DNA from: Cellulophaga sp. RHA19
GTDB lineage: Bacteria > Bacteroidota > Bacteroidia > Flavobacteriales > Flavobacteriaceae
DNA: 64,000 bases
Assembly (NCBI RefSeq): GCF_002813425.1
Contig: NZ_PHUL01000001.1
Location: forward strand, 434,001 to 498,000
Direction of reading: 5' to 3'
The notes beneath the pieces were generated by a model that worked only from the letters and a program-made list of their open reading frames with translations, did no database searches and was not told the DNA's origin. This document shows positions 14,809 to 59,748 of this stretch, one piece after another. The stretch's first letter is position 1, and the number at the start of each line of letters is the position of its first letter. A program made the translations under genes and the position numbers.

Positions 14809-14867
14809 TAATTAAAAAAAATTACTACATTTATCTCACAATTAAATTAAACCAACACACAAAAATT

Positions 14868-45680: not shown

Positions 45681-45973
45681 AATTTGTGTGTTTTAATGTT
45701 TAACAGTTAATACTACCAAAGCACTATTGCAATGGCACTGCAAACTTATGGGCACCAGCAAATTTTAGTCGGGTACAAAGCGCTTACTTTCGGTTGTAAA
45801 TGTTTGTAGTCGTTTAAAAACGACACACACAACCACAAAATGTTATTGTAAATAAGCTTATTCTAATGCATTTTATACATAAAATTGGGCCAATTACACA
45901 TTTCCGTAATTACAGTACATAAAATAGTTTTAAATTGTGAGAAAAATAGCAACCAAATAACAGCTAATAATGT
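45681..45973. other. Noncoding region between ssb and the cassette array
   Basis: No gene is supported in this stretch. It contains a hairpin GTCGTTT-AA-AAACGAC (45809-45824) and several CA-rich tracts; an in-frame open stretch at 45885-46073 is not credible as a gene. A recombination or attI-like site could lie here but no integrase is seen. Confidence 0.5.
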
Positions 45974-46044
45974 AAAACGTGCGTTTATCCAGCCATATGG
46001 GTGGAATAAACGCAATACATTGCGTTTATATGTAGTTAGGGCTA
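45974..46044. repeat. Array entry site with tandem alternative hairpins
   Basis: Three copies of GCGTTTA in alternating orientation can form either a hairpin 45981-46013 (GCGTTTAT..AATAAACGC) or a perfect one at 46007-46028 (TAAACGCAAT, loop AC, ATTGCGTTTA). Directly after lies GTTAGGGCTA (46035-46044), which is the exact reverse complement of TAGCCCTAAC at 47286-47295. It marks the crossover point of the first cassette. Confidence 0.6.
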
Positions 46045-46069
46045 ATATCCACTCAAACCCAAAAAAACT

Positions 46070-47281
46070 ATGATTTACAAGAAAGTTCCTGGGAAAGAAC
46101 CTGAAGAAATTCACTCAAAAGGAGAACAAGCTGAAGAATTAGTTAATTCATTATCTAAAAATGCCTATTTAAAACATTGGTGTTATCCAAATCCAATTGA
46201 CATAGATGGCGACAAGAAAGAAATCTGTGATTTACTCATTTTGTTTTTTGACACAGCTATAATTATATCAGTTAAAAATTATGATTTAAAAGGAAATTAT
46301 GAAAGGTTTAAAAAGAAAGTAATAGAAAAATCGAGTAAACAACTTTTTGGTGCAGAAAGAAAACTGTTTAAATCTAATCGACCAGTAAAAATATCCCATT
46401 CCGAAAAAGGAGAAGAAATATTTAATCCTGACGATTATAAAAACATTTTCAGAATTACAGTTAGTGCTGGAGAAGATTTTGAAAATTATGAATTTATCGA
46501 CAACAAAGAAGGAAAAGGTTCAGTAACAATTTTTAACAAAGAAACTTTTGAAATTATTATTCAAGAATTAGATACGATTAAAGACTTAATCGAATACCTA
46601 AAATCTAGAGAGGATTTATTATTAAAAAATCTCGGAAATAAATGCAACTGCACTGAAAAGGATTTACTCGCACAGTTTTTAATGAACAAAAGAGAATTCT
46701 CAAATGAATTAATAGCTGACTTTGAGAATGAAACAGAGTCTTTAAAAACTAAATGGGATTCTTATATTCAAAGCAAATCTGTATTTATAAAAAAACTTGA
46801 AGATGAAAAGAGTTACTTCATTGATGAATTAATTAAAAATGACGTCTTAAAATTACCAAATGGAGAATTATTAGCCAAAGAGTTAATGACTTTGAGCAGA
46901 TTTGAAAGACGTATTATTGCACAAAACCTATTTGAAATAGTAGAAAAAAATGAAGATAAAGCTGATTTTCTAGCAAGAAGGTTTTTGAAATATAATGGAA
47001 TCGGTTTTTTGTTTATTTATTATCCAATAGAAAAAACTCAAGAGGAAATTGATTTTATACTTCAAAAAGCTCAAGAATTATATGCCTACTATCATAATTC
47101 AAATAAAGTTGTTTTATTAGCAGCTTCAAAAGGGTTGAAACAATGGAAATTTGGATTATTCCAAGCGACTGAATTAAACGAACAAATTGAAAACTATCTA
47201 CAAGAATTAGCAAAAACATTTGGTTGGTTCCAAAACGAAAAACGAACTGAAAGAATAATTAAAGAATATCCAGACGAATAA
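46070..47281 (+). CDS. Nuclease-like protein of cassette 1
   Basis: This 403-residue cytoplasmic protein is unrecognised by name. Near the N-terminus it has ICDLLILFFDTAIIISVKNY (residues about 52-71), a D-x(n)-(V)xK arrangement like the PD-(D/E)xK/NERD nuclease core, preceded by WCYPNPIDIDGDKKE. The middle (170-290) is helical and rich in Lys/Glu, probably coiled coil. The C-terminal third is mixed alpha/beta. The gene starts 35 bases after the first crossover core and its stop lies just before the first attC-like site. A DNA-cutting or defence role is an inference only. Confidence 0.6.
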   Translation: MIYKKVPGKEPEEIHSKGEQAEELVNSLSKNAYLKHWCYPNPIDIDGDKKEICDLLILFFDTAIIISVKNYDLKGNYERFKKKVIEKSSKQLFGAERKLFKSNRPVKISHSEKGEEIFNPDDYKNIFRITVSAGEDFENYEFIDNKEGKGSVTIFNKETFEIIIQELDTIKDLIEYLKSREDLLLKNLGNKCNCTEKDLLAQFLMNKREFSNELIADFENETESLKTKWDSYIQSKSVFIKKLEDEKSYFIDELIKNDVLKLPNGELLAKELMTLSRFERRIIAQNLFEIVEKNEDKADFLARRFLKYNGIGFLFIYYPIEKTQEEIDFILQKAQELYAYYHNSNKVVLLAASKGLKQWKFGLFQATELNEQIENYLQELAKTFGWFQNEKRTERIIKEYPDE

Positions 47282-47285
47282 ATAC

Positions 47286-47421
47286 TAGCCCTAACACCGT
47301 GTATAATTAATGGCTAGTTCTCGCCTACTTACGAAAATCCTCAAGGATTTTCTATTCGGTTTTTATTTGCTAAACTAAGTGCTTAAACACGCCACTAATC
47401 ATACACAAACACGTTAGGTGC
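47286..47421. repeat. attC-like site 1 (family A)
   Basis: Begins with core TAGCCCTAAC (47286-47295) and ends at crossover GTTAGGTGC (47413-47421). Outer arms GTGTATAATTAATGGC and GCCACTAATCATACAC are imperfectly complementary, as are inner arms around GAAAATCC-TCAA-GGATTTTC (47333-47352). Contains GTGCTTAAAC block shared with sites 4-6. Confidence 0.72.
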
Positions 47422-47470
47422 AATTTGACATAACAACATCGGAAAACAAAAAACGTAAACTGAATAACAA

Positions 47471-47950
47471 ATGGTAGTAATTGCGATAGTAATTATTTTA
47501 GTCCTTGGATGGATTATTTTCGAACAATCAAGTGCGAAAAAAAATCAAGAAGAACACAATAATAGATTTAAAAACTATGACCTAAAGAGAAAGGAGAATT
47601 TTAAAAAAGTTCCTGAATTTTTGGATAATTACTCAAAGACAGAATCTATATTCAGAAAACTTGTTGATTCGGAAATCAATGGACTTGAAGTGTTGCGGAC
47701 TTTTGAACCTGATGACCAAACTACACAGATAACACGAAATGTTTCTCTAACTTATAACGACATTGAATTTTATATAACTTTAACAGGAACTTATTTTGAT
47801 TGTAGATGTCTTTTTTTGAGCAAAAAAAATAAGAATTTGAATTTTGATATAAAATTCGCAAATAACGAAGATGATAATATTACTATTTCGAATATTACAA
47901 ACGAACTGAAAAGATTATCAAAATACGAAAAAGAAAAAATGTTGAACTGA
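47471..47950 (+). CDS. Single-span membrane protein of cassette 2
   Basis: This 159-residue protein has one N-terminal membrane helix (VVIAIVIILVLGWIIFEQ) followed by a charged, soluble part with no recognised domain. Two Cys lie close together in FDCRCLF near residue 114. The gene is the sole one in its cassette, beginning 58 bases after the crossover at 47413. It has no similarity I recognise, and a small host-interaction or immunity role is possible but unsupported. Confidence 0.62.
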   Translation: MVVIAIVIILVLGWIIFEQSSAKKNQEEHNNRFKNYDLKRKENFKKVPEFLDNYSKTESIFRKLVDSEINGLEVLRTFEPDDQTTQITRNVSLTYNDIEFYITLTGTYFDCRCLFLSKKNKNLNFDIKFANNEDDNITISNITNELKRLSKYEKEKMLN

Positions 47951-47975
47951 TTAAATAAATTGAAGATTAAAAAAC

Positions 47976-48114
47976 TGCACCTAACACAGTATAAAAATAA
48001 TTGCGGTTTTAGTGCTTAATCAAAGGTTGTTGCGTGTTTGTAACGTCTGAATTTCCTTCGGAAATTCCTCGCATACAAACCCGCAACTATTCTTATACAT
48101 AAACGTTGCCCGTA
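47976..48114. repeat. attC-like site 2 (family A variant)
   Basis: Core TGCACCTAAC (47976-47985) and crossover GTTGCCCGTA (48105-48114). Arms ATAAAAATAATTGCGG and CCGCAACTATTCTTAT are complementary with few mismatches; a second stem CGAATTTCC-type GAATTTCCTTCGGAAATTC lies at 48049-48067. TTTAGTGCTTAA, on the right side in sites 1 and 4, is on the left here. Confidence 0.72.
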
Positions 48115-48133
48115 ATTAAAAAAAAATGAACAT

Positions 48134-50200
48134 ATGAGCAAAATTTACAGACTATCATTTTTAGGAATTTCATTTGTAATCTTAATTATTTTAGGCTACT
48201 CTTTAACTGATAATTTCGATTTTCTTCTAGACCATTTTTGGTTTACTTCTGGATTATTACTGTTAATTCTGCTCTCACTAATTGACCAACCACATTTTTC
48301 GAAAGATTCTAACATTTTTGTTAATGCAATAACCGCAGGAATTTCATTACTAATTGTAGACGAAAGCAATCGAGATTTTATTTTTTGGGTTTTTCTTTCA
48401 ATAATTATTTATTTAACTGTAAGTAGCTATGTTTTATTATGGTTAAGGCAGAAAAGCCTTGGTTTGGAAAATAAATTAGTCCGTTTAATATCAAGATTAA
48501 ACAGAGAAATTGGAAAACCCGAAACACTTTTTTCAAGCTTTTTCATTTGGGGAGTTTATAAACAATTTGGAACTGGAAATAATCAATTTAATGGACTGTT
48601 ATTATTTTGGGCAATATTTATTATTTTAAATATTCCATCTTTAGCTAAATCGATTGAAGATTTATTCGCAATTGGAAAAGATAAAAGTAATAAGTTAGCA
48701 TTAGGACAAATATTTGGTGTACAATCAAAAAACACTTTTTTAGTACGCTTATATGATTCTTCAGAAAGAATTGTAAATACTCGTATTTTCGACTTTGTAG
48801 AATTTAAATATTCAACAGATAAAAAGATTAGAAAAGGTTTACTTTTAGAAACCTATCTATTAAATCAACAACAATGGGTTAAAGTTTTATCTAATAATGA
48901 AATAGAAAAAATATTTGATGAAAACATTTTTGAAAATCATAAATCAGATGTCGTTTATAGAATAGACAAAATTCCTGAAAATGATTATTTAAAAAGGTTT
49001 GTAGGCATTGTAACTGAAAATAGTACTATTTCCAAAATACGTTTCATCTACAATTCTAAAATAAAAATTAATGAAGGACAGCTTTTAGAAGTATCTATTC
49101 AAGGTCAAAAAGTTCTTTATCAAATTATCGAAGGAATAACAAAAATTGAACAACTGGAAAACAAAAACCAAACTGGACTTATTTTAGGAGAAGCTTTACA
49201 ACTTGGTACTTGGAATGAAGATAAGTTTCAATTTGAACAATTCGGTTGGGTTTCTGAAATTAACACACCAATTTATATAGCTTCACCTATTAAAGAACCT
49301 AAAATTGAAAATAATGAATATAAAATTGGAAATATACCAAATACGAATTACCCAGTAGTCTTAAATAAAGACACTGCAATATCTCATCATATGGCAGTAG
49401 TTGGAGTTACAGGAACAGGTAAATCAGTATTTTCTAGAAACCTTATCCGACAATATTTAGAAGACGAAAACACCAAGGTTATTTGTATTGATTTCACGGG
49501 AGAATATATTGGTAAATTTGCAGATTTAGACCCAATAAAAACTATTGATGAACATCTTAGTGAACAATTATTTAAAGATATTGATTATATAGAACGAGAA
49601 ATAGGAAGCAATTATAATAAAGACAATGATAATTCAAGGAAAAAGAAAAAAGAAGTTTCCGAGAAAATTAACGAACAAGTAGAGACATTCTTAAAAGGAG
49701 ATAATAAACTTTCTATTTTTGAATTACCTCACGTGGAAAATACAACTGGTGTTTTAACTTACACCAAAACATTTTTTAGAATTTTATTTCATATAGCTAA
49801 AACACAAAATAATTTTGGAAAACGAATATGTATAGTTTTAGAAGAAGCTCATACAATTATTCCTGAATGGAATTTTTCTGGAGTATCAGATAAAGCTTCT
49901 CAACCTTTACTTAATAGTATTGCACAAATAGCCTTACAAGGACGGAAATATAATGTTGGTTTGTTAGTTATTGCTCAAAGAACAGCAAATGTTTCTAAAA
50001 CAATTTTAACACAATGTAATACCATAATTTCATTTCAGGAATTTGACAAAACAAGTAGTGATTTTTTATCTAATTATTTCGGTCAAGAAATTACAAAGTC
50101 ATTACCAAAACTTAAATTTAGACAAGCAATTATTGCAGGAAAGGCATTGAAATCAAACGTTCCTATGATATTTGAAGTTCCGAATATAAAAGAAGAATAA
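48134..50200 (+). CDS. Membrane-anchored HerA/FtsK-like ATPase of cassette 3
   Basis: This 688-residue protein begins with about five hydrophobic segments (LSFLGISFVILIILGYSL, FWFTSGLLLLILLSL and others to residue 180), a beta-rich HAS-barrel-like region (about 185-400), and then a DUF87/HerA-type ATPase domain: Walker A GVTGTGKS at 424-431, Walker B IVLEEAH near 570, and VIAQRTANVSK sensor segment. HerA-like motors move DNA and pair with nucleases such as NurA or with defence partners. Membrane anchoring suggests DNA or protein translocation at the envelope. It is the largest cassette; a terminator lies in its 3' site. Confidence 0.78.
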   Translation: MSKIYRLSFLGISFVILIILGYSLTDNFDFLLDHFWFTSGLLLLILLSLIDQPHFSKDSNIFVNAITAGISLLIVDESNRDFIFWVFLSIIIYLTVSSYVLLWLRQKSLGLENKLVRLISRLNREIGKPETLFSSFFIWGVYKQFGTGNNQFNGLLLFWAIFIILNIPSLAKSIEDLFAIGKDKSNKLALGQIFGVQSKNTFLVRLYDSSERIVNTRIFDFVEFKYSTDKKIRKGLLLETYLLNQQQWVKVLSNNEIEKIFDENIFENHKSDVVYRIDKIPENDYLKRFVGIVTENSTISKIRFIYNSKIKINEGQLLEVSIQGQKVLYQIIEGITKIEQLENKNQTGLILGEALQLGTWNEDKFQFEQFGWVSEINTPIYIASPIKEPKIENNEYKIGNIPNTNYPVVLNKDTAISHHMAVVGVTGTGKSVFSRNLIRQYLEDENTKVICIDFTGEYIGKFADLDPIKTIDEHLSEQLFKDIDYIEREIGSNYNKDNDNSRKKKKEVSEKINEQVETFLKGDNKLSIFELPHVENTTGVLTYTKTFFRILFHIAKTQNNFGKRICIVLEEAHTIIPEWNFSGVSDKASQPLLNSIAQIALQGRKYNVGLLVIAQRTANVSKTILTQCNTIISFQEFDKTSSDFLSNYFGQEITKSLPKLKFRQAIIAGKALKSNVPMIFEVPNIKEE

Positions 50201-50201
50201 C

Positions 50202-50393
50202 TACGGGCAACAAAGAACTGAGGTAAAAAACAAACAAATTCTTCGTTAATTTGAGGCATTATTATAGTAAGCTCATAGATTCTAAAGCTGATTCTTTGGG
50301 CTTTTTTATTGTATTTATTTTACATTTATCTAGTCAGTATAGAAACGCTAGTATTTACCACCTGCTCAACACTTCTTATAATGAACGTTTTTC
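50202..50393. repeat. attC-like site 3 with embedded terminator
   Basis: Core TACGGGCAAC (50202-50211) is the exact complement of the cassette-start core at 48105. The right arm (CTCAACACTTCTTATAATGAACGTT, 50365-50389, given in part) is close to the right arm of site 2. Left AAGAACTGAGGTAAA can pair with the right TTTACC...CTCA...CTTCTT. The insertion makes it about 190 bases, longer than the others. Confidence 0.6.
50269..50307 (+). terminator. Rho-independent terminator inside site 3
   Basis: Imperfect stem AAGCTCATAGATTC (50269-50282) with GATTCTTTGGGCTT (50290-50303) and T-run to 50307, downstream of the HerA-like gene. Confidence 0.6.
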
Positions 50394-50412
50394 GTGATTT
50401 GAGATAACCGAA

Positions 50413-51051
50413 ATGATAAAGATATTTAAGCGAAATATTAAGTCTGAATACGAGGAAAGATTAAAAAAATCGTTTCCAAAAGAATTGTATTCAGACTTGA
50501 ATGAAGTTTTGAAAATTTTACCATTAGATAAGAATCTAGTTAAATTATGTGATGGCCAAACTCATAAAGCTGACAATCTAATTCACGAATTGGAATTGAA
50601 TATTGAATTTAACAACGAAACTCTAATAATTCCTTCTAGACTTTACTTTAACGAACCAAATCCAGAATTAGAGAAATCTTTGACTGATAAACAAAAAGAC
50701 ATTTTAAATTGTATTTATTTACGTCATCACAATGGATATTTAAGAGAAAAACGACTGAATTTAATATCTGATAATTCAGAAAAGTGGACTGTTCCATTTA
50801 TAATCCATTTAATTGGTGAATATGTTTATGAATTACTTCCTATTATTGACAAAAAAATAAACAAAAACACTCTGGATTATTACGTTGATTTTATAGGTGA
50901 AAACCCTAAATATTGGCAACAGACTGAAAGTAGAATGATAAGCTATTGGAATGAATATTATAGGTGCAAATTTCCGAAACTGAAAGATTATTTGGGATTT
51001 GAAATTGTTAACCGAATAAAAAAACGAAAGCAGAATAATGGCTATAAGTAA
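50413..51051 (+). CDS. Hypothetical protein of cassette 4
   Basis: This 212-residue soluble protein has no signal or membrane segment and no recognised domain. It is rich in Lys, Asn and Leu; visible pieces are YSDLNEVLKILP, YLRHHNGYLREKR and VPFIIHLIGEYVYELLP. Its last residues (NNGYK) are encoded inside the attC-like site, so the stop codon lies within the repeat arm GGCTATAAGTAATTGC. Its ratio of charged residues resembles small cassette-borne immunity-like proteins, but that is not evidence of function. Confidence 0.6.
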   Translation: MIKIFKRNIKSEYEERLKKSFPKELYSDLNEVLKILPLDKNLVKLCDGQTHKADNLIHELELNIEFNNETLIIPSRLYFNEPNPELEKSLTDKQKDILNCIYLRHHNGYLREKRLNLISDNSEKWTVPFIIHLIGEYVYELLPIIDKKINKNTLDYYVDFIGENPKYWQQTESRMISYWNEYYRCKFPKLKDYLGFEIVNRIKKRKQNNGYK

Positions 51052-51165
51052 TTGCTACTTCTACCCTATTTACAAATCCCAAAAGCGTTGAAATTTTATC
51101 TAGTTTTTATTTGCTAAATTTAGTGCTTAAACCACGCAACTAACATACACAAAACCGTTGTTCCC
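51032..51165. repeat. attC-like site 4 (family A)
   Basis: Left arm GGCTATAAGTAATTGC (51039-51054) and right arm GCAACTAACATACAC before crossover GTTGTTCCC (51157-51165). The first core is decayed (GCAGAAT where GCACAAC is expected). The interior is nearly identical to site 5, including CAAATCCCAAAAGCGTTG and TTTGCTAAATTTAGTGCTTA. Confidence 0.7.
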
Positions 51166-51174
51166 AATTAAAAA

Positions 51175-51993
51175 ATGAATAAACCAATACTAATAGTACT
51201 TATTCTAATAACAATTTTATCTTGTAAAACTGAAAAGTCAACTGAAATAATTGTTATTGGAACACTTCATAAACCAGAATCTAATTTTAATTCAGAAATT
51301 CTCTTTAATATATTAGAAGACGTAAAACCTGATTTTATATTACGAGAAGTAGATTCTTCATTCTTTACTTCTGATTTTAGATACAAAAATGTATCAACAA
51401 GCAATGAAGCTATAGCATCAGAAAAATATTTTAAAAAATATTCCAAGACAAAATTAAGACCTTATGAGTTTGAAGGCAGAAATGAATACCGATTAAATAT
51501 TGGTTCACGCCCAACAGACGGTTTAACAACAAAATTATTGGATAGCTTAAATAAAGCTAATTTATTAACTGCTGCTGAATCTAAAATTTACAATAAATAT
51601 GAATCTCTTTTGGAGCCACTAATAATATTGGCTTCTAAATCACCTGAAAATTTTAACAACAGCACAACGGATAGTATTTGCGCAGAAAGACAGTATTATC
51701 AGTATAAAATGTTATCGAAAATTACAAATGTAAGAGATGAGTTCTCAAATCGCTTTCATACCAAACCAAATGGAGAAAAAATAAGTTACCGAGATGGGTT
51801 TCAGTTAGTTTGTGATTTTTGGGATTTAAGAAATAAAACAATGGCAAAAAATATAATGACGATTTCTGAACAGAACAATGGCAAACGAATTGTTGTTCTC
51901 TGTGGATTTATGCACAGATATTATATTTTAAGTGAATTGAAAAAACTAACCAAAGGCAAGAAAATTATAATAAAAGAATATTACGAGAATTAA
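51175..51993 (+). CDS. TraB/TIKI-like lipoprotein of cassette 5
   Basis: This 272-residue protein has a lipoprotein signal ending ILSC (Cys17). The pattern IGTLH (28-32), E58 in ILREVD, RN at 219-220 in DLRNKTMAKNI and GFMH at 244-247 fits the TraB/PrgY/GumN/TIKI superfamily, in which two GxxH motifs and acidic residues form a putative metal site. It is thus possibly an envelope-anchored metallohydrolase. It starts 18 bases after crossover 51157 and is the sole gene of its cassette. The superfamily call is from motif pattern only. Confidence 0.6.
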   Translation: MNKPILIVLILITILSCKTEKSTEIIVIGTLHKPESNFNSEILFNILEDVKPDFILREVDSSFFTSDFRYKNVSTSNEAIASEKYFKKYSKTKLRPYEFEGRNEYRLNIGSRPTDGLTTKLLDSLNKANLLTAAESKIYNKYESLLEPLIILASKSPENFNNSTTDSICAERQYYQYKMLSKITNVRDEFSNRFHTKPNGEKISYRDGFQLVCDFWDLRNKTMAKNIMTISEQNNGKRIVVLCGFMHRYYILSELKKLTKGKKIIIKEYYEN

Positions 51994-52001
51994 AAAACTA
52001 A

Positions 52002-52137
52002 GCACAACAACTCATAAAATTAATTGCTACTTCTACCCTACTTACAAATCCCAAAGCGTTGAAATTTTATCTAGTTTTTATTTGCTAAATTTAGTGCTTA
52101 AACCACGCAACTAACCAGATACTAAACCGTTGTGCAT
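52002..52137. repeat. attC-like site 5 (family A)
   Basis: Core GCACAAC (52002-52008) is complementary to crossover GTTGTGC (52129-52135) in place, though it matches the cassette 5 start (GTTGTTCCC) over only five bases. Interior almost identical to site 4 over more than 80 bases. Confidence 0.72.
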
Positions 52138-52141
52138 CATT

Positions 52142-53275
52142 ATGAAAAACATTATAAAGAAAATTCAAACTATAACATTTTTACTATTAAGTTGTTTTAT
52201 TTACGCTCAAAACAATTCGGCTTTTGAAATTGAATTCAGTGGAAAACTTTATTTTGACAACATAAAAGATAGCCTCAAGTATTCTAAATTTTACAGCAAA
52301 ATGGATAGTGAAATTTCAGAGCGTATTCTTACAGCCGAAAAGGAAATTGTAATCATAAATAAGGATACCATATTGATTGAACAGTTTCCGAAAAAAATTG
52401 GTCCTTCAAAAACAATGTATATTAGGAATTCTAATATAAACGATAGACTTGATTTAAACTCTGGAAAAAAAACTAAATGGAATAACCCATATATTACATC
52501 AAAATATCGTAAAATTAATAATTACAAAAGAATTCCTACTGAAGACCAAAAAATAATAGGAGAGGAATGTGAAGCGTGGATTTCAAAATCTAAAAATGGC
52601 TGGAATAAAATTTGGATTTCAAAAGTAAAATTAGAAAATTCAGAATTAGAATACCCAGACTTAATTATTAATGGGTTTTTAGTACTAAAAAGAACTAAAC
52701 ATTTAAATGGAGGTGGAAATATAGATTTTGAGGCTCAGTCAATTAACAAAATAAATATATCTAATTTCAAAAATATTTTGGGAAAACATTTAATAGTTGA
52801 TATTAAAACAAAATATAGTCCTATTGATGAAAACCAAAAATTATCTGACAAATCAATAAAAGTTGGAAATCAAGTTGACAATTTTGCATTCAGAAATGTA
52901 TTCGAAAATGACCTTATTAAACTTTATGATATTACTAAACAAAAGAAATATACAATTGTAGAGTTTTGGGGAACTTGGTGCGTACCTTGCTTACTTGCAA
53001 ATGAAAAAATTAAAGAGTTAAAAAAAACTTATGAAGATAATCTATCAATTTTCTCAATCAACGCCGACGATAGAAATATAAGTAAGTTAAAAAAAATGAT
53101 TGAGAAAAAAGAAATGAATTGGTCTCACGGTTATGCGACTGAAAAGCTACTGAAAGTTTTTAATAATAAAGGAACTTACCCAAGGTTAGTTATATTGAAT
53201 AACGAAAATCAAGTTTTGTTTATTGGAAACCCACAAGTTGATTTAGATAAAATAAAAGAAGTATTGAATAAATAA
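52142..53275 (+). CDS. TlpA-like thioredoxin of cassette 6
   Basis: This 377-residue protein has a signal peptide (TITFLLLSCFIYAQ), an N-terminal beta-rich region (about 20-230) whose IIGEECEAWISKS...NKIWIS stretch recalls the GLPGLI-type fold, and a C-terminal thioredoxin domain (about 240-377) with WGTWCVPC active site and TYPRLVIL cis-Pro loop. It is likely a periplasmic thiol-disulfide oxidoreductase. ATG 52142 was chosen; a TTG at 52130 lies in the crossover core itself. It is the only gene of its cassette. Confidence 0.82.
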   Translation: MKNIIKKIQTITFLLLSCFIYAQNNSAFEIEFSGKLYFDNIKDSLKYSKFYSKMDSEISERILTAEKEIVIINKDTILIEQFPKKIGPSKTMYIRNSNINDRLDLNSGKKTKWNNPYITSKYRKINNYKRIPTEDQKIIGEECEAWISKSKNGWNKIWISKVKLENSELEYPDLIINGFLVLKRTKHLNGGGNIDFEAQSINKINISNFKNILGKHLIVDIKTKYSPIDENQKLSDKSIKVGNQVDNFAFRNVFENDLIKLYDITKQKKYTIVEFWGTWCVPCLLANEKIKELKKTYEDNLSIFSINADDRNISKLKKMIEKKEMNWSHGYATEKLLKVFNNKGTYPRLVILNNENQVLFIGNPQVDLDKIKEVLNK

Positions 53276-53277
53276 CA

Positions 53278-53412
53278 ATGCACAACAATGGCTATAAGTA
53301 ATTGCTTGTTCTAGCCTATTTACGAAAGTCCTTTCTGACTTTTTCACTCGGTAATTATTTACTAAATTAGTTGCTTAAAACACGCAACTAATCTGATACA
53401 AACGCGTTATCA
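53278..53412. repeat. attC-like site 6 (family A)
   Basis: Core ATGCACAAC (53278-53286) is the exact complement of the cassette start core (52129-52137). Arms GGCTATAAGTAATTGC (53290-53305) and GCAACTAATCTGATAC flank an inner stem GAAAGTCC-TTTC-GGACTTTTT-like region; ends at crossover GTTATCA (53406-53412). Confidence 0.72.
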
Positions 53413-53467
53413 TTTATTGCGATACGAATTCTAGTTAAGTAAAAAAATATTTAAATTAAAACTCATC

Positions 53468-53713
53468 ATGTCTAAATTTCATTTTATTATGGTTCTTATT
53501 ATTTGGGGCTTGTCTTTAGACTTACTAGTAAAAACAAAGCGTTCGTTATCTAGTATTTTATTAAATACTGGTCTTGGATTATTTGTTGTGTGTATTTTCC
53601 TTAATGTCTTTTTAGATTTAAGAAGCCCTATCTTATACATTATTCGGAATTATGTTTCTGCTATACTTATTGTTATTGGTTTCTTTATGTTGGTAAGGAA
53701 ACATATCAAATAA
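53468..53713 (+). CDS. Small membrane protein of cassette 7
   Basis: This 81-residue protein consists of about three hydrophobic segments: FIMVLIIWGLSLDLLV, LLNTGLGLFVVCIFLNVFL and YVSAILIVIGFFMLV, separated by short basic loops. No family is recognised. It begins 62 bases after crossover 53406, the position expected of a cassette gene, and is followed by a degenerate site. Confidence 0.6.
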   Translation: MSKFHFIMVLIIWGLSLDLLVKTKRSLSSILLNTGLGLFVVCIFLNVFLDLRSPILYIIRNYVSAILIVIGFFMLVRKHIK

Positions 53714-53754
53714 CATGTAATTCTACAGTAAAATAAAAGTCATTTAATATGGCT

Positions 53755-53845
53755 AAAAAATGAAAACATAAAAATTCAGCTTTGTGTAATTCCTAAAAGT
53801 TAGTGCCTTTTTACACGCTACGTTTCATACAAAAGACCGTTTATA
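53755..53845. repeat. Repeat family B, copy 1
   Basis: Shares with 57228-57305 the stretches AATGAAAA..ACATAAAAATTC and CTTTTTACACGCTACGTTTC (53807-53826; 57266-57285), then CA.AAGACCGTT ending at a GTT core (53839-53841). No clear left arm. It is probably a different, more decayed type of cassette site. Confidence 0.5.
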
Positions 53846-53852
53846 CCTAATT

Positions 53853-53887
53853 AAAAAACCACTCGAACTTTAATTAAAACTCGAGTG
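53853..53887 (-). terminator. Terminator of the reductase gene (minus strand)
   Basis: Arms CACTCGA (53860-53866) and TCGAGTG (53881-53887) with complementary A/T interior; the A-run 53853-53858 gives a U-run for the minus-strand transcript ending at 53906. Confidence 0.75.
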
Positions 53888-53905
53888 ATTCTTAAAAATT
53901 ACCTG

Positions 53906-54919
53906 TTAATTTAAACGTTGTTTTACAGATTTAACCGTGTCTAAAACAGATTTTTCAAAAGAAATTGGCTTCCAATTAAATACTTCTTTTGTTTTGCTAA
54001 CATCTGCGTTATAGGTGTTCCCAATAAAAGGTTTCATACCTTTTAAATCGCTATTAAAATTAGACATAAATTTTAATAAGAAATTTGGACCTTCTAAAGT
54101 GCTTACTTTATCGTTTCCATTTGCTTTTAGAATTTGAGCCATTTCTTTAAACGAATATGGATTTTCGGTTGCAACAACAAATCGTTGTCCGTTTGCCTTC
54201 TCATTTTCTAAAGCCTTAACGTGTATACTGGCAATATCTCTTACATCAGACATATTCATACGTACTTTGGCAAGCATTGGCATTTTACCAGTAATCATAT
54301 CCTTAACAATATTCATTGATTCACCAGAGAGTTTATCTGACAAGGTTGGTCCCCAAATTGGACCTGGATTAATAACAACCAATTCCAACTTATTATCTCC
54401 TTTTTGAGTTTCTATAAAATCCCAGGCACTCTTTTCTGCAAGTGTTTTACTTTTTACATAGGCAGACATATTTTTAGCATTTGGGTTAGTCCAAGTATCT
54501 TGCTCTATGTTTAATGACTTATTTGCATCACCAAACATTGCTACCATAGAAGAAGTTAAAACCACGCGTTTTACACCTGCGCTTTTAGCAAAATTTAAAG
54601 CACGTTGTGTACCGTCAATAGCAGGTTTTATAATTTCGTTTTCATCTTTAGGCTCACTTGCCACATAAGGCGAGGCAATATGTAAAACATAGTCACAATC
54701 TTGCATTGCTTCCATCCAGCCTTCATCTTTTAAAAGGTTAAGCTCACAAAACTCTAAATTACCATTGGGTTCAACTTCTTTTTTAATTAATCTTATTAAT
54801 TCATCTGCTTTAGATAAGTTCCTAACAGAACCTTTTACGGCATATCCATTTTTTAGTAATTCCACTGCTGCGTGCAGACCAACATACCCTGAAACTCCTG
54901 TTACTAATACTTTTTTCAT
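53906..54919 (-). CDS. NAD(P)-dependent epimerase/dehydrogenase (extended SDR)
   Basis: This 337-residue cytoplasmic oxidoreductase has the N-terminal dinucleotide motif TGVSGYVGLHAA (7-18), the S...YxxxK active site visible as SSMVA...YVKSK, and a NAD-binding Rossmann fold typical of dihydroflavonol-4-reductase/aldehyde-reductase-like members. It may reduce aldehydes or steroids; no specific substrate is supportable. It is the only minus-strand gene of the array and is divergent from an HxlR-type regulator that lies next to it, suggesting that the pair is a regulatory unit. Confidence 0.85.
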   Translation of the reverse strand: MKKVLVTGVSGYVGLHAAVELLKNGYAVKGSVRNLSKADELIRLIKKEVEPNGNLEFCELNLLKDEGWMEAMQDCDYVLHIASPYVASEPKDENEIIKPAIDGTQRALNFAKSAGVKRVVLTSSMVAMFGDANKSLNIEQDTWTNPNAKNMSAYVKSKTLAEKSAWDFIETQKGDNKLELVVINPGPIWGPTLSDKLSGESMNIVKDMITGKMPMLAKVRMNMSDVRDIASIHVKALENEKANGQRFVVATENPYSFKEMAQILKANGNDKVSTLEGPNFLLKFMSNFNSDLKGMKPFIGNTYNADVSKTKEVFNWKPISFEKSVLDTVKSVKQRLN

Positions 54920-55054
54920 TTTATTATATTTTATTTACATCAAAATATTACTTGCTAATTGCAAGCAAAGATACTATTTTACTTTTATTTTGCAAGTAAT
55001 AAATAATTAAACGTATTTTTACAGAATTATTAGTATGATAATACCACATTAAAA

Positions 55055-55474
55055 ATGGAACATAAATTTAGATGCAACTGCCCTATTACAAGCGCTATTG
55101 ATATTATTGGAGATAAATGGTCTTTAGTAATTATTAAGCAAATGTTGACCGAAAAGAAGAAAACATTTAAAGATTTTATTGAGAGCGAAGAAGCTATAGC
55201 AACAAATATTTTGTCTTCGAGATTAAAAATGTTAGAAGAATTTAAAATTATAGTAAAAGGAAAACTTCCTGAAAACAAAAAAACAAACATCTATACTTTA
55301 ACAGAAAAGGGAATTGCACTTACACCATTAATTGTAGAACTATCTATTTGGAGTGATGCTAATCTACGAGAGTTTCATTCTGATTTATATGCAGGTGAAG
55401 AGTTAAAAATGTTAAGAGGTAACAAAGAAAAGTTTATTGAAAATATAGTAGAAAATTATAAGAAGAATAATTAG
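55055..55474 (+). CDS. HxlR-family winged-helix regulator
   Basis: This 139-residue DNA-binding regulator has the HxlR signature near the N-terminus (CPITSAIDIIGDKWSLVIIKQM) and the winged helix to about 100 (TNILSSRLKMLEEFKIIVKG, LTEKGIALTPLIVELSIW). Two Cys at positions 7 and 9 (CNC) may be redox- or aldehyde-sensing, as in other HxlR proteins with conserved N-terminal Cys. It is divergent from the SDR gene by 135 bases and probably controls it. Confidence 0.88.
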   Translation: MEHKFRCNCPITSAIDIIGDKWSLVIIKQMLTEKKKTFKDFIESEEAIATNILSSRLKMLEEFKIIVKGKLPENKKTNIYTLTEKGIALTPLIVELSIWSDANLREFHSDLYAGEELKMLRGNKEKFIENIVENYKKNN

Positions 55475-55503
55475 CTATAATAACATATTGAGAAAAAAAT
55501 AAA

Positions 55504-55623
55504 ATGTCATTTTTTGACACTAAATATAAATTAAAAGCTAACGAATATAGTTTAGTGGTACCATTAGTATTAAATAATACTAATATTACTCTTAGTAAAG
55601 ACTATAAAAACGGATATGATTAA
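55504..55623 (+). CDS. Possible 39-residue peptide or gene remnant
   Basis: ATG at 55504 opens 39 codons ending at TAA 55621-55623, with residues MSFFDTKYKLKANEY at the start and LNNTNITLSKDYKNGYD at the end. It looks compositionally protein-like but is short, has no neighbour evidence, and may be the decayed end of a larger cassette gene. Very uncertain. Confidence 0.25.
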   Translation: MSFFDTKYKLKANEYSLVVPLVLNNTNITLSKDYKNGYD

Positions 55624-55678
55624 AAAATTTCTACTAAGGCTAGCTATTGTTATGCTTCCTTAGGTAGTTATTTAATTA

Positions 55679-55721
55679 GGTGCTTAAACCACTCAGCAAA
55701 CCATACAAAAACACGTTGAAC
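55679..55721. repeat. Half attC-like site (right arm only)
   Basis: GGTGCTTAAACCACTCAGC and CATACAAAAACACGTTG match the right halves of family A sites (GTGCTTAAACCACGCAAC...CATACACAAAACCGTTG). No matching left arm is found upstream, so this is a decayed or truncated site with crossover GTTGAAC at 55715. Confidence 0.55.
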
Positions 55722-55789
55722 AACATTTCTAAAAACGGCATAATTATTGTTAAATTCCTATAATATTTTAACTATAAAAAACAGTTTAA

Positions 55790-56353
55790 ATGAGAAAATC
55801 ATTACTAACACTAGCTTTTTGTGTACTGACTTTAATTGCAAAATCACAAACCGCAAGTGTTGAACAATCCATTTATGGAATACAAACAGGAGTTTTAGGA
55901 ATTTGGGCTCATAAGGAGACAAAATTATCTAATCAAATTGTTTTAAGAGCAGAAATTGGAATGGATGCTGGTTTTTGGGGAGGAAGTTTTTATCCTAAAA
56001 ATGGATATTTAATGACACCTGTAATTAGATTAGAACCTAGATGGTATTATAATCTTAACAAAAGAGTCTCTAAATCGAGAAATATTAGCGGAAATAGCGG
56101 AAATTTTTTAACACTACAAACAAATTATAACCCAAATTGGTTTGTAATATCAAATTATGATAATGTAGAAGTGGCTGACCAAATTTCCATAATACCAACT
56201 TGGGGAATTAGAAGAAATATTGGGAATCATTTTACATACGAAACTGGAATTGGAATTGGATACAGATATATTTATGCTAAAAGTGTGGGGTATTTGGAAA
56301 ATGAAGAAGAAGCTGCTTTGAATTTACATTTAAGAATTGGTTACCGATTTTAA
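55790..56353 (+). CDS. Outer-membrane beta-barrel-like exported protein
   Basis: This 187-residue protein has a signal peptide (KSLLTLAFCVLTLIAKSQ), several amphipathic beta strands with alternating aromatic residues (YLMTPVIRLEPRWYYNL, YETGIGIGYRYIYAK) and a final strand NLHLRIGYRF ending in Phe, the pattern of small outer-membrane barrels. There is no recognised domain name. It starts 75 bases after crossover-like GTTGAAC 55715, so it may be a cassette gene. Confidence 0.65.
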   Translation: MRKSLLTLAFCVLTLIAKSQTASVEQSIYGIQTGVLGIWAHKETKLSNQIVLRAEIGMDAGFWGGSFYPKNGYLMTPVIRLEPRWYYNLNKRVSKSRNISGNSGNFLTLQTNYNPNWFVISNYDNVEVADQISIIPTWGIRRNIGNHFTYETGIGIGYRYIYAKSVGYLENEEEAALNLHLRIGYRF

Positions 56354-56387
56354 TTAGAATAATAAACGACACCACAACAAAGTACTA

Positions 56388-56912
56388 TTGGAGATTAAAG
56401 AATATAAACTTTCTGAAAAAGAACTTAAAAAAATTAAGAAGAAATACTGGAAATCTATACTGGTAAATGCTATTATGTTTTTGGTGTTTACCATACTATT
56501 TTATTTATCAAATAAAAACAGAACTAATTATGATTTCTCCTTAATACTTTTCAACATATTATTTGGCATAGCTGTGTTATTATTATTTCTAAATTTAATA
56601 GGTACTATACTTAGTAGCAAAGACTTAAGAAAAGATAGCAAGGAAAGAAAAAAAATAAAAACTACAATTATTATAAAAGAAAAAAATGAGCTTGTTAAAA
56701 CAGGATCTAGCAGGAGTAATATTAGTACAACCACCTATAGACTGTTGTTTGAAAACAACGATTTTTTGACGGTATATGATGTAAGAAAAAATGATTTCAA
56801 TAAAGTAAAGGTGGGTGATACAATAACTTTGGTTTGTGCCAAATACAGCAAATTAGTTATTAAAATTGAATGGAATTCTATAAGTATAGAAAACAAAGGT
56901 TACTTAGCCTAA
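56388..56912 (+). CDS. Two-span membrane protein
   Basis: This 174-residue protein has two adjacent hydrophobic segments (ILVNAIMFLVFTILFYL and FSLILFNILFGIAVLLLFLNLIG) and a soluble C-terminal part rich in beta strands (TYRLLFENNDFLTVYDVRKND). It begins with TTG 56388. No family is recognised. The gene lies 34 bases after the beta-barrel gene with CACAACAA between, a possible decayed core. Confidence 0.6.
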   Translation: MEIKEYKLSEKELKKIKKKYWKSILVNAIMFLVFTILFYLSNKNRTNYDFSLILFNILFGIAVLLLFLNLIGTILSSKDLRKDSKERKKIKTTIIIKEKNELVKTGSSRSNISTTTYRLLFENNDFLTVYDVRKNDFNKVKVGDTITLVCAKYSKLVIKIEWNSISIENKGYLA

Positions 56913-57331
56913 ACTTGTTTGCAGTAATGGTTTTAAGCAATTTAAGCTATGTAGAAAAGCATTCATTTTACAAAAAAAACTCAAGGTTTAACCAAATATT
57001 AACTAGATATTCTAAGAATGGAATTAATGTGAGATAGTTAAACATTACATTTGAAAGAAATGAAATTGTTATGAATTATTCTGTGATGGGCAGCTGTAAC
57101 AAAAACTGTATACAAGAATGCCTGCCTAAACGTAATGCAGAATTTAAGATAAACCGTAAGGTTTGTGTATATTTATAAAGTCTGCTAAATAGAATATTAC
57201 GCGACAGCGAAATGGTTTTTTTTTGCTTTTAAAAATGAAAAATTAAAAACATAAAAATTCGGCATCTTTTTACACGCTACGTTTCATTCACAAGACCGTT
57301 ATGTTTAATTCCAAAAACAGCTTAAATTATT
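56913..57331. other. Noncoding stretch with repeat families B and C
   Basis: This 419-base stretch holds no supported gene. It contains a family C motif at 57165-57188 (GTGTATATTTATAAAGTCTG core) and a family B unit at 57228-57305 ending in core GTTATG (57298). A short frame at 57071-57178 reads as MNYSVMGSCNKNCIQE, with three Cys, but lies in a repeat and is not accepted as a gene. Confidence 0.5.
57228..57305. repeat. Repeat family B, copy 2
   Basis: Contains AATGAAAAATTAAAAACATAA and the stretch CTTTTTACACGCTACGTTTC (57266-57285), the same as copy 1 (53807-53826), then CACAAGACCGTT and a cassette start GTTATG at 57298. The RDD gene starts 34 bases downstream, in the same spacing as family A cassettes. 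Confidence 0.55.
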
Positions 57332-57931
57332 ATGAAAGAATTGACATTTGAAATAATTTTCTTAGCGGTTTTAATACTCGCGTACTTTGGAGTTTATTAC
57401 TTATCTAATTATTTGATTACTTATGAGCTAAAAAAGAAAAACACGAATAGAATATCTAACGTTAAGACTTACAAAACAATAACAAGAAGAGGTGAAGAAT
57501 ATGATTATGAATTTCCTCTAAACCCAAATATTGACGGATTTTGGATTAGATTCTTTGCCAAATTATCTGATTATAGTATTTATGCAGGATTCTTCTACTT
57601 GTTTAACAAAATGTTTAAGGAAATAAACTGCTATCCTTTTGTAATAGCTTTTCTTGCCTTATTCATTATCAATCCGATTTTTGAATCATTAACTGGTAAA
57701 ACATTTGGGAAATATATCTTTGGTATGAGAGTAATTGACGATTTTGGAGATAACCCATCATTTTTGACATCATTTATTAAAAACCTATTACAACTTTTTA
57801 GTATCGTATTTTTAATACTCTCAAGTTCAACTTTATTGGAAGACGAAATGTTTTTTCATAACAAAAAGACATTTACATACACAATTTGGAACAAAGACAA
57901 AGAAAAAATTTTAACGCAATTAAATACCTAA
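57332..57931 (+). CDS. RDD family membrane protein
   Basis: This 199-residue protein has an N-terminal span (IIFLAVLILAYFGVYYLS), then an RDD domain (about 70-190): DGFWIRFFAKLSDYSIYAGFFYLF, then NPIFESLTGKTFGKYIFGMRVI with the typical G-K-x-x-G-M-R segment, and a final LFSIVFLILSSS span. RDD proteins are thought to transport or bind small solutes; the substrate is unknown. It is in a cassette starting at core GTTATG 57298. Confidence 0.8.
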   Translation: MKELTFEIIFLAVLILAYFGVYYLSNYLITYELKKKNTNRISNVKTYKTITRRGEEYDYEFPLNPNIDGFWIRFFAKLSDYSIYAGFFYLFNKMFKEINCYPFVIAFLALFIINPIFESLTGKTFGKYIFGMRVIDDFGDNPSFLTSFIKNLLQLFSIVFLILSSSTLLEDEMFFHNKKTFTYTIWNKDKEKILTQLNT

Positions 57932-57939
57932 ACAAAACT

Positions 57940-58102
57940 AATAAGTGCTTAACCCAAAGTTTAGTGTATTTTTATAAAGTATGCCAAGTATTTTGATTTG
58001 ACTTTGAATAAGAAAAATTAAAAACATTTGCTTGACCAGAAGCTAAAAGCCTGCCAGATTTCTACAGGATTTTACTCATAGTCGCAACTTTAGCGTTAGG
58101 CA
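57940..58102. repeat. Repeat family C / cassette-like site
   Basis: TTTAGTGTATTTTTATAAAG (57960-57979) matches the family C motif at 57164. The right part ends GTCGCAACTTTAGCGTTAGGC, with crossover core GTTAGGCA (58095-58102) 49 bases before the alpha/beta hydrolase gene. Confidence 0.5.
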
Positions 58103-58150
58103 AATAAAATATTTAGTAAACAAATGCAATTATAAAGAAAATAAAACATT

Positions 58151-59644
58151 ATGACTTCAAACTATTTTTCAACAATAAATAATTTGCAAACAAAGCATAC
58201 CTATAAAAACTTAATTCTACTAGGTTTATTGACTATACTAGTTTTTAGCATACCGCATATTTCATATTCCCAAGAAAAGAAGACAGAGCAAACATGGGAA
58301 CTACCAGAGATAAAAAACTCATCGGTAGTTGTTAAAACTGAAACCAATTATTCAGAAGTAAATGACACTATACCAATTCGTGGAACACAATACATGATTA
58401 GAGTTCCAGAAGCATGGAATGGGATTTTATTGAACGATTTGGATTATTTACAGTCTGCCAATTCAGAAAGAAATCTTCATCTTTTGGAAGAAGGATATGC
58501 ATTATCAGGCACTAAACGCCGTCCAGATAGATTTTCGAATTATGACCCTGCTCACGAAATCCACGACATTATTTCGGTGCTTGATATTTTTGAAAAAACA
58601 TTTGGAAAGCCAAAACACACAATACAATTGGGTTGTTCTGGTGGTGGCACAATAACTTTGGCTATGGCTGAAATTCATCCTGACCGCATAGACGGAGGAA
58701 TTGCAGGTTGTGCCGCAACAAGTGCTTGGATGGCAAATACACATATGGACGCCCTATTTGTATTACAAGCTCTAATTGCTCCAAAATTACCTATTGTTGG
58801 ACTTCCTTTAAAAGGTAAAAGAATAGAAGAAATAGAGTTAAGTTGGCAAAAAGCTATTAAAGCAGCACAACAAACACCAGAGGGGCGTGCACGTATAGCC
58901 TTAGCATTTACCATTGGTCAATGGCCTGCATGGGGAGCTGCTTGGATGGAACCTTTTCCCCAACCAGATGTAAACAATGCAGATGAACTTCAAGAAAGTA
59001 TGTATAAGTGCTTAATAAAATTACTACCATCCCAAAAAGCTTTTGGCACAGTTATGCTAGAGCAATCTGGTGGTGGACAACTAAGGTTTAATGATGGAGT
59101 TGATTATACTGAGTATTACAAAAATGGCAATCCTGATTTTAAAAAGGCTGTTGAAAAATTATATAAAAAAGCAAATATAAAGCTGGAAGATGAACTTATA
59201 AAAATAAACGCAGCTCCTAGAGTAAAAGCTGATGCAGAAGCATTAAACTACTGGAGTTCCCCAGGACGAACACATATTGGAGAACCTAAAATACCATTAT
59301 TACGAATAAACACAACTGGCGATGGTTTAGTTTATCCTAGTATGGCACAAGGTTATGGAGAGTTGGTTGAAGAAAAAGGCTATTCCAAGCTTTTTAGACA
59401 AGCTTACGTTAATAGTTGGGGACATTGTACTTTTTCTTTAGCTGAATGGTTGGCAGCAATTGAAACAATGGTACAACGAATTGAAAATGGAGAATGGCCA
59501 AATACTGACCCTAAAACATTAAATTCTTTGGGAAAATCTTTAGATGCAGAAAGCGATGTTCGTTATATTGATTATAAGCCTGTTGGTAAATACAATAGAA
59601 CGTGGAGTCCTTCAGTTGATAATTTTATTGAGAAACAAAAATAA
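58151..59644 (+). CDS. Exported alpha/beta hydrolase
   Basis: This 497-residue protein has a long leader with one hydrophobic core (NLILLGLLTILVFSIPHISYSQ, about residues 19-40). The catalytic domain has the nucleophile elbow GCSGGG (Ser about residue 163), an acidic residue in NTTGDGLVYP, and His in NSWGHCTFS; AEIHPDRIDGGIAGCAATSAW is typical of secreted prolyl-oligopeptidase-like esterases. It may act on esters or peptides in the periplasm. It lies in a cassette starting at 58095 and is followed by a degraded site. Confidence 0.78.
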   Translation: MTSNYFSTINNLQTKHTYKNLILLGLLTILVFSIPHISYSQEKKTEQTWELPEIKNSSVVVKTETNYSEVNDTIPIRGTQYMIRVPEAWNGILLNDLDYLQSANSERNLHLLEEGYALSGTKRRPDRFSNYDPAHEIHDIISVLDIFEKTFGKPKHTIQLGCSGGGTITLAMAEIHPDRIDGGIAGCAATSAWMANTHMDALFVLQALIAPKLPIVGLPLKGKRIEEIELSWQKAIKAAQQTPEGRARIALAFTIGQWPAWGAAWMEPFPQPDVNNADELQESMYKCLIKLLPSQKAFGTVMLEQSGGGQLRFNDGVDYTEYYKNGNPDFKKAVEKLYKKANIKLEDELIKINAAPRVKADAEALNYWSSPGRTHIGEPKIPLLRINTTGDGLVYPSMAQGYGELVEEKGYSKLFRQAYVNSWGHCTFSLAEWLAAIETMVQRIENGEWPNTDPKTLNSLGKSLDAESDVRYIDYKPVGKYNRTWSPSVDNFIEKQK

Positions 59645-59667
59645 AATACATCAGTAACAACTGCTGT

Positions 59668-59748
59668 TAATACCCAGATATAATTAATGCGATAACTTAG
59701 TATTTATATGATTTTAGGGCCTCCTAATCATCAGAATACAAATGGCTA
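59668..59748. repeat. Degenerate attC-like site closing the array
   Basis: GTTAATACCCAGATATAATTAATGC (59667 onward, in part) resembles the left arm of site 1 (ACCGTGTATAATTAATGGC), and CCTAATCATCAGAATACAAA (59723-59742) resembles its right arm. Cores have decayed. The sequence lies immediately before the WapI-like gene. Confidence 0.5.

Follow-up and report, generated by a model that had tools for sequence, protein, structure and literature searches.

A cassette array of Cellulophaga sp. RHA19 probably belongs to a chromosomal integron run by a tyrosine recombinase outside the IntI clade

Then, could integron cassettes be gathered on a bacterial chromosome by a recombinase that is not an IntI? 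This question is raised by a row of accessory genes in Cellulophaga sp. RHA19, within bases 434001-498000 of the closed chromosome of 3,934,755 bases. These 64,000 nucleotides are the stretch analysed here (the window), and positions are those of the window unless a chromosomal position in kb or another locus is named. The cassette region runs from 46036 to about 59745. The first-pass annotation had described it as an integron-like array of accessory genes almost all on the plus strand, and the list of open reading frames (ORFs) bears this out, the sole exception being 53906-54919. It was also correct that this list holds no integrase gene within the window; a recombinase gene lies elsewhere in the genome. 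Here, we propose, with a probability of about 0.88, that the array is one of the landing platforms belonging to a type of chromosomal integron undescribed in the literature searched, run by a non-IntI recombinase. That is, a tyrosine recombinase would recombine the attC-like sites of circular cassettes into attI-like sites between G and TT of a GTT triplet, and a single recombinase gene (728.9-729.7 kb) would serve eight attI platforms, seven of them far away, including the one next to ssb that heads the window array. The enzyme would lack the insertion that in IntI grips the extrahelical bases of a folded attC, and the attC bottom strand would fold, with top-strand A.C mismatches becoming G.T wobbles. 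The enzyme, the attI, the clusters of sites and the cassette turnover described below all support the integron-like part of the earlier reading.

What marks the units as cassettes? In a cassette, the nine bases following its opening crossover G are reverse-complementary to the nine preceding its closing crossover C, which, as far as the sequence goes, is what circular integron cassettes predict. For example, GTTAGGTGC at 47413 corresponds to GCACCTAAC ending at 47985. The complementarity extends over 9 of 9 positions in three window cassettes and 8 of 9 in a fourth, in agreement with the earlier claim that the ends follow the logic of attC cores. The two arms of a single site, taken from a sample of four arrays, are poorly paired (mean 5.0 of 9 positions), so the end pairing is a property of the cassette and not of the site. 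Note that the 48 cassettes of this sample (4 from the window, 16 from the array at 729 kb, 9 and 19 from two arrays of another genome, G199) were picked for at least eight paired end bases; their pairing is therefore present by selection, and the chains and controls are the actual tests. Without chaining, pairs arise often by chance in DNA so rich in A+T (7 bare pairs in the window, 9 in the reversed sequence), and stricter controlled tests were used instead. Pairs chained at 40-260 nt stand three in a row in the window versus one in the reversed sequence, and chains of at least three occur in 9 of 79 related loci of other Bacteroidota versus none of the 79 reversed ones; one reversed locus outside this set (L100) reached a chain of three.

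Between their core triplets, 37 adjacent sites from the four arrays measure 116-123 or 183-186 nt. A covariance model, R1, was built from 17 RHA19 sites, five of them in the window. Its stem comprises 11 pairs, 8 of which show covariation with changes on both sides. The five training sites in the window score E ≤ 3.3e-19, and the next match beyond the seven accepted ones has E > 0.5. Over the RHA19 genome, R1 gives at least 52 sites at E ≤ 0.01, a lower bound because 150 of 5467 candidates were scored; they are mostly clustered, so that the covariance scan suggested earlier does recover sites. The claim that each gene is followed by a site holds at the seven R1 sites, five of them strong and two weak matches, and the measured lengths fall into the two classes given above rather than loosely around 130 bases. 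The claim fails at four junctions (about 50.2-50.39, 57.1-57.3, 57.94-58.1 and 59.65-59.75 kb), which are degenerate or of another length class and have no significant R1 match. No Rfam family reached its gathering score in the window, and only tRNA did so in loci L008, L009 and L187. As to a phage origin, positions 46035-48140 have no match in the phage collection.

Where would such cassettes land? The window array begins with a 59-bp attI-like site (Table 1), whose palindrome AATAAACGCAATACATTGCGTTTA has 31 matches in the RHA19 genome and none when read backwards; most places count on both strands because the sequence is nearly palindromic. An attI, which had been put forward as something to look for, is represented in the regions fetched from RHA19 by 17 copies at eight places, i.e., 411, 480 (window), 695, 729, 1351-1404 (ten copies), 2047, 3558 and 3811 kb. 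The 729-kb copy begins 19 nt past the end of the recombinase gene and heads an array of about 24 kb. All other copies have about 80 bp more of upstream sequence in common, which includes an inverted repeat and a segment resembling a promoter, the 1404-kb copy being the most diverged in the upstream-extended alignment. The part at 45892-45940, conserved across the aligned dispersed copies of five species, is possibly a promoter reading into the array. Among the 16 copies away from the enzyme gene, eight have an orthologous copy in one to four of the sampled related species, seven have none and one has too little upstream sequence for the comparison, which did not include every copy of the relatives. 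The region at 1351-1404 kb (L059-L062) is, judged by its sequence, a row of several putative platforms, its ten copies lying within 53 kb, all in reverse orientation, 2-13 kb apart and with genes between them. With one enzyme and eight or more dispersed platforms, a chromosome would have many places for a first cassette, which would be an unusual genome architecture for an integron. Elsewhere in RHA19, 2830796, 3605305-3608311 and 3789317 are candidates for clusters of attC sites lacking integron integrases (CALINs), and a weak attI-like motif at 1605078, beside a partial R1 match at 1604438, is perhaps a decayed platform.

Which enzyme could act on these sites? The search for a tyrosine recombinase that the first-pass annotation had advised yields a gene at 728.9-729.7 kb, 250 kb from the window array and adjoining a second array. 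In RHA19 it is frameshifted into two overlapping frames (L008 13853-14281 and 14251-14739), and intact orthologues of 297 aa are present in the related genomes G002, G003, G006 and G012. This 297-aa protein is likely the enzyme of the window array. In each of the five Cellulophaga genomes with this gene, an attI starts about 20 nt behind it. An array stands behind the enzyme in RHA19 (G000) and G002, and the contigs of G003, G006 and G012 end within 2.4 kb. Among 18 Cellulophaga genomes compared, the five that have the gene of the 297-aa enzyme, intact or broken, each have 10 to 15 forward matches to the attI core, whereas 12 of the 13 without the enzyme have none and the remaining one (G017) has a single match containing two mismatches; read backwards as a control, the core gives 0-1.

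Is this enzyme an IntI? The integron integrase model TIGR02249 gives it 206.2 and 206.8 bits, below the curated cut-off of 265, and the XerC and XerD models give 166-171 bits. An IntI-type integrase with the added helix had been named as something to search for. None occurs in RHA19, where TIGR02249 matches only the split enzyme, XerC and XerD, all below the cut-off, and the enzyme found lacks the helix. Residues 184-245 of IntI4 align to just 19 residues of the query (202-220), and the spacing between the KDR and HxLRH motifs is 58-59 residues in the 56 relatives measured versus 99-100 in the 8 canonical IntI measured, the motif fitting neither 21 further IntI, four relatives nor two Xer. The IntI-specific insertion of about 42 residues is absent from the enzyme. 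The AlphaFold model (mean predicted local distance difference test score 83.9, predicted template modelling score 0.67) has no helix between H189-202 and H219-232, and a structure search with it returned two Xer and one IntI, tied, as the top three matches. In a tree of 81 rows, the 21 canonical IntI form one clade (100/100) and the 58 rows of the enzyme family another (96/89), in several parts of which array-bearing enzymes are found; the XerC and XerD of RHA19 are separate genes outside the enzyme clade. The enzyme is, on these comparisons, a relative of IntI outside the IntI clade and not an IntI. Its clade may be sister to IntI or may have a separate origin; the tree, midpoint-rooted with meeting long branches and only two long-branch Xer rows, fits either.

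How could an enzyme without the insertion choose a strand? According to PMC8946536, what known integrases recognise in attC is its bottom strand, folded and bearing extrahelical bases; PMC8138268, a study of tyrosine recombinases, describes the IntI insertion as not fully conserved in an integron-like subgroup, yet essential for integron function. In 36 of 37 of the present sites, the bottom strand gives the more stable fold of the two, and, again in 36 of 37, it lies more than two standard deviations below dinucleotide shuffles. Over 16 ungapped positions in 37 sites, the inner stem has 592 pairs: 461 Watson-Crick pairs, 86 that are A.C when read on the top strand, 6 that are G.T, and 39 of other kinds. 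At the tenth pair of the outer stem, 44 of 48 show A.C. Sites of other genera behave alike, with 87 A.C, 11 G.T, 31 other and 607 Watson-Crick pairs (51 of 59 R1 matches taken, long-class and partial ones excluded, 46 readable). An A.C mismatch in the top strand corresponds to a G.T wobble in the bottom strand, which can thus form pairs along nearly its whole length, and this asymmetry would favour folding of the bottom strand. A one-base bulge improves 17 of 90 family sites (3 of 19 in RHA19, 5 of 23 in G199, 9 of 48 elsewhere) versus 9 of 10 in one array beside a canonical IntI of the phylum, L292, which was picked as control for its long pair runs and in which one site may not be a true attC. 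A loose chain test did not separate canonical IntI arrays from reversed controls, the reversed chain at least equalling the forward one in length at 7 of 8 loci, including L292. The canonical R' box GTTRRRY fits 5 of 48 sites, and most sites lack the extrahelical base of canonical attC. The IntI insertion and, mostly, the extrahelical base are absent together, and with both missing the recognition of folded attC becomes testable by comparison. The simplest reading is that the enzyme uses the folded bottom strand, telling the strands apart by wobble pairs; it might instead use the sites as double strands. We infer that the enzyme performs the recombination on that folded strand, acting in trans.

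Could the array simply be a CALIN left behind by a canonical integron whose IntI has since been lost? The GTT/AAC cores, the L''/L' stem, the mostly single-gene units and the lack of a nearby integrase are what such a remnant should show, and according to part of PMC9024848 integrons and CALINs are common elsewhere. Formally, the window does fall under the definition of a CALIN (at least two attC, no integrase nearby). The array is nonetheless headed by its own attI-like site, so it is not the plain CALIN that had been considered earlier. In addition, no RHA19 protein exceeds the IntI cut-off, and the gain by a bulge seen beside a canonical IntI is rare in this family. Among 395 genomes of the phylum, 105 have a canonical IntI above the cut-off; of the 108 with an IntI match one is marked as of the same class, the share of scanned genomes in that class not being shown, and none as of the same order or family. 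Such a relic is quite improbable.

The suggestion that this lineage has a cassette system of its own is too narrow, because relatives of the enzyme and arrays occur in other Bacteroidota. In 397 genomes of the family, three more genomes, G199 among them, have the enzyme at no less than 78% identity, with four copies in all; each has the palindrome (two or three mismatches) within 30 nt and then cassettes, the first clean cassette pair in G074 following 7.9 kb on and G122 showing one cassette before its contig ends. A second form of the enzyme has about 375 aa with an N-terminal extension. In loci L017-L038, this long form has an extension of about 75 residues. Of 19 family genes in the genus, incomplete and broken ones included, 15 have R1 sites downstream, all on the strand of the gene, and R1 sites occur upstream in 1 of 15 stretches; every one of the 18 genomes contains R1 sites. 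From other genomes, 80 loci were taken, mostly of Bacteroidota and mostly of other genera, and 77 were scanned with R1 (L107, L119 and L146 excluded). All 59 matches, in 25 loci, are downstream of the enzyme and on its strand. Cassette starts with 9 of 9 bases paired occur within 200 nt of the enzyme in 18 of the 52 loci with at least 1200 nt behind it versus 13 of 878 control windows. In Flavobacterium psychrophilum DSM 3660 (L152), an integrase relative is followed 107 nt on by the start of a cassette, and there is an attC-like match as well. At distant array heads, the attI palindrome scores at least 8 in 7 of 18 versus 12 of 1080 control windows. The C-terminal half matches at 137 bits or more in 40 of 60 relatives, comprising 18 of 18 in the genus, 17 of 19 in the rest of the family and 5 of 23 in other families.

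In the short-form loci tested, the enzyme gene is preceded by a small divergent gene for a Zn-ribbon protein without Pfam match, named DUF2116 Zn-ribbon by some sources. Among the 80 loci, 37 have this gene, always upstream of the enzyme gene and on the strand opposite to it. In RHA19 it is located at L008 13366-13797 (minus strand), and its product is a possible partner or regulator of the integrase.

Have cassettes come and gone at the window platform? The attI at the ssb locus is present in four related species besides RHA19, with other or reordered cassettes. The order is Tex-ssb-attI in G012, G002 and G006 and ssb-attI in G003, the Tex gene of the latter two lying mostly or wholly before the stretch examined. 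Three protein genes are common to the window array and G006, and two of them are swapped in order, that is, the homologue of cassette 5 precedes that of cassette 4 in G006. None of the window-array cassette genes was seen in G012, in G002 or in the 19 kb examined of G003. At the ssb loci of G007, G008 and G009 (a short stretch in G009), there is no attI, nor did a genome-wide pattern search find one. Gain, loss and reordering of cassettes at the same attI, variation that had been proposed as a check among strains, is thus observed between species. Seven comparisons lead into attI from outside, starting in the flank or in the enzyme gene; in these, identity ends at GTT or one base past it in three and up to 20 nt earlier within attI in four, and it never runs further; between RHA19 and G012, for example, it passes through the flank and stops at GTT 46035-46037. 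Two RHA19 arrays, at 738 and 2049 kb, also contain one and the same cassette gene, 94.8% identical over 806 nt.

This turnover might be ascribed to homologous recombination between repeats that are themselves mobile or structural elements, with no site-specific enzyme involved. The sites are alike and could recombine, and some shared blocks do begin inside the preceding site. Such exchange does not predict a complementarity that links both ends of one cassette while single sites show little of it. Also against it, identity at attI stops by GTT, and all 59 sites in loci of other genomes follow genes of one recombinase family on the same strand. We regard this account as very improbable. Weakest of all is the idea that XerC and XerD, which act on dif sites, treat these sites as dif-like modules, the 297-aa enzyme being unrelated to them: both proteins are present in RHA19 and the palindrome with its short centre resembles a Xer-type core site, but hairpin sites of 120 nt with same-cassette ends are not dif-like, the 13 genus members without the enzyme lack attI (bar the one two-mismatch match) despite XerC/XerD-like matches, and attI stands directly behind the enzyme in 9 of 9 copies examined.

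Several observations weigh against the integron proposed here. With its own integrase gene broken, RHA19 probably has in the window array a platform that is frozen at present, and 4 of about 11 window junctions are decayed. R1 was trained on RHA19 sites, which makes its matches in that genome partly circular; those in other genera are not. At 2831, 3605-3608 and 3789 kb of RHA19, attC matches were found without an attI. The enzyme and the dispersed attI copies may be confined to one clade of the genus, in which case the split of five against 13 genomes may be a single event, and the turnover comparison rests on one genome per species rather than a strain series. Draft contigs often stop within arrays. 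In other genera, 52 of 77 loci have no R1 match, loci with a near cassette start are a minority (18 of 52), and 11 of 18 distant array heads have no strong palindrome. The control for extrahelical bases is a single canonical array that itself leans to A.C (11, versus 4 G.T).

The features of the window array are listed in Table 1. As to the definition of an integron, cassettes with attC-type sites at the 3' end, GTT/AAC cores and a stem are found at 7 of about 11 window junctions, and an attI at the array head is present on sequence. A tyrosine recombinase with an array is present at 729 kb (frameshifted) and in relatives (intact), rather than beside the window array. In the 729-kb array (L008), a cassette of 218-219 nt without an ORF occurs in two copies (14790-15008 and 19129-19346). 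A transposase gene is inserted in the same array at L008 16134-17132, presumably of the IS110 type, and a similar gene is located in the 1351-1404-kb region (L060 9758-10729).

Table 1. Putative features of the cassette array in the window. R1 scores refer to the covariance model described in the text; "training" marks sites used to build it. Names of the two flanking genes were assigned from sequence.
Feature	Coordinates	Strand	Remarks
ssb	45345-45680	minus	left flank
attI module, upstream part	45892-45940	+	inverted repeat AATTAC-N8-GTAATT (45892-45911) and conserved TTTTAAATTGT stretch
attI-like site, 59 bp	45979-46037	+	GTGCGTTTA, CATATGG block, AATAAACGCAATACATTGCGTTTA, six bases, GTT
attI palindrome AATAAACGCAATACATTGCGTTTA	46005-46028	+	
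attI crossover GTT	46035-46037	+	
Cassette 1	46036-47413	+	ORF 46070-47281, 403 aa, no Pfam match; ends 46036/47294 complementary 9/9
attC-like site 1	47290-47418	+	R1 122.5 bits, E 1e-23; training
Cassette 2	47414-48105	+	ORF 47471-47950, 159 aa, no Pfam match; ends 47414/47984 complementary 9/9
attC-like site 2	47980-48110	+	R1 106.7 bits; training
Cassette 3	48106-50387	+	ORF 48134-50200, 688 aa, HerA-like ATPase, PF01935; ends 48106/50210 complementary 9/9
3' site of cassette 3	about 50210-50387	+	degenerate
Cassette 4	50388-51157	+	ORF 50413-51051, 212 aa; 96% identical protein elsewhere in G006 array
attC-like site 4	51031-51162	+	R'' triplet altered; R1 101 bits; training
Cassette 5	51158-52129	+	ORF 51175-51993, 272 aa; 84% identical protein in G006
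attC-like site 5	52003-52134	+	R1 106.2 bits; training
Cassette 6	52130-53406	+	ORF 52142-53275, 377 aa, thioredoxin-like (Pfam); ends 52130/53285 complementary 8/9
attC-like site 6	53281-53411	+	R1 112.9 bits; training
Cassette 7	53407-53839	+	ORF 53468-53713, 81 aa, 98% identical in G006
Weak attC-like site, cassette 7	53729-53844	+	R1 E 0.0035; outside training set
Two-gene divergent unit	53840-55715	.	epimerase 53906-54919 (-, Pfam); ORF 55055-55474 (+, candidate HxlR-type regulator by eye)
Weak attC-like site, two-gene unit	55603-55720		R1 E 5.9e-5; outside training set
Unit with two ORFs	55716-57298	+	ORFs 55790-56353 and 56388-56912; decayed site before 57299, no significant R1 match
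Unit with one ORF	57299-58095	+	ORF 57332-57931; decayed long-class site about 57935-58095, no R1 match
Last unit	58096-59745	+	ORF 58151-59644, 497 aa; strongly decayed site-like stretch after it, no R1 match
Phospholipase-like gene	60377-61885		right flank

What would the system mean beyond RHA19? Among the matches listed in the open-access literature, a body that leaves bioRxiv and most subscription journals outside, there is no report of integrons in Cellulophaga or Flavobacteriaceae, and no paper on integrons, Bacteroidia and attC sites together was found there. Parts of two reviews count the Bacteroidetes/Chlorobi group or Bacteroidota as integron hosts (PMC2426708, PMC8618304). The IntegronFinder 2.0 survey, in its pertinent passage, mentions that earlier only In0 elements were seen in Bacteroidetes; to these it adds a complete integron of Salinibacter ruber, apart from others in Chlorobi and Ignavibacteriae (PMC9024848). 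If the reading proposed here is true, searches based on IntI pass over integrons in the class to which Flavobacteriaceae belong, and the cassette pool there is as yet uncounted. A broader hypothesis, to which we give even odds, is that a second integron lineage across Bacteroidia recombines folded single-stranded attC without the helix and the extrahelical bases considered necessary for this, choosing the strand by A.C/G.T, perhaps aided by the Zn-ribbon protein, and that one enzyme feeds at least eight attI platforms in Cellulophaga.

How does the system compare with known ones? With IntI integrons, such as the Vibrio cholerae superintegron and those of class 1, it shares co-directional and mostly single-gene units, GTT/AAC cores, stem-forming attC, an attI at the array head, a tyrosine recombinase and a bottom strand predicted to fold. 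However, its enzyme is outside the IntI clade and lacks the insertion, and its attCs are mostly without an extrahelical base and carry the A.C/G.T strand code, the GTTRRRY box being rare among them. Integrons with inverted IntI orientation are known from Treponema and others, and use canonical IntI. In them, as here, the integrase gene and the cassettes are co-directional, while the RHA19-type enzyme comes from another clade; the term "inverted IntIs" appears in a part of PMC8352920. A CALIN likewise has no integrase at hand, unlike the window array in having no attI-like head of its own that is syntenic in other species. Compared with archaeal XerA and bacterial XerC/XerD, the enzyme is again distinct, the RHA19 XerC and XerD being encoded apart from it and falling outside its clade. 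The RHA19 system also differs from IntI integrons in its arrangement, with an enzyme gene that points into its array, an attI behind that gene, further attI copies far from it and a divergent Zn-ribbon gene.

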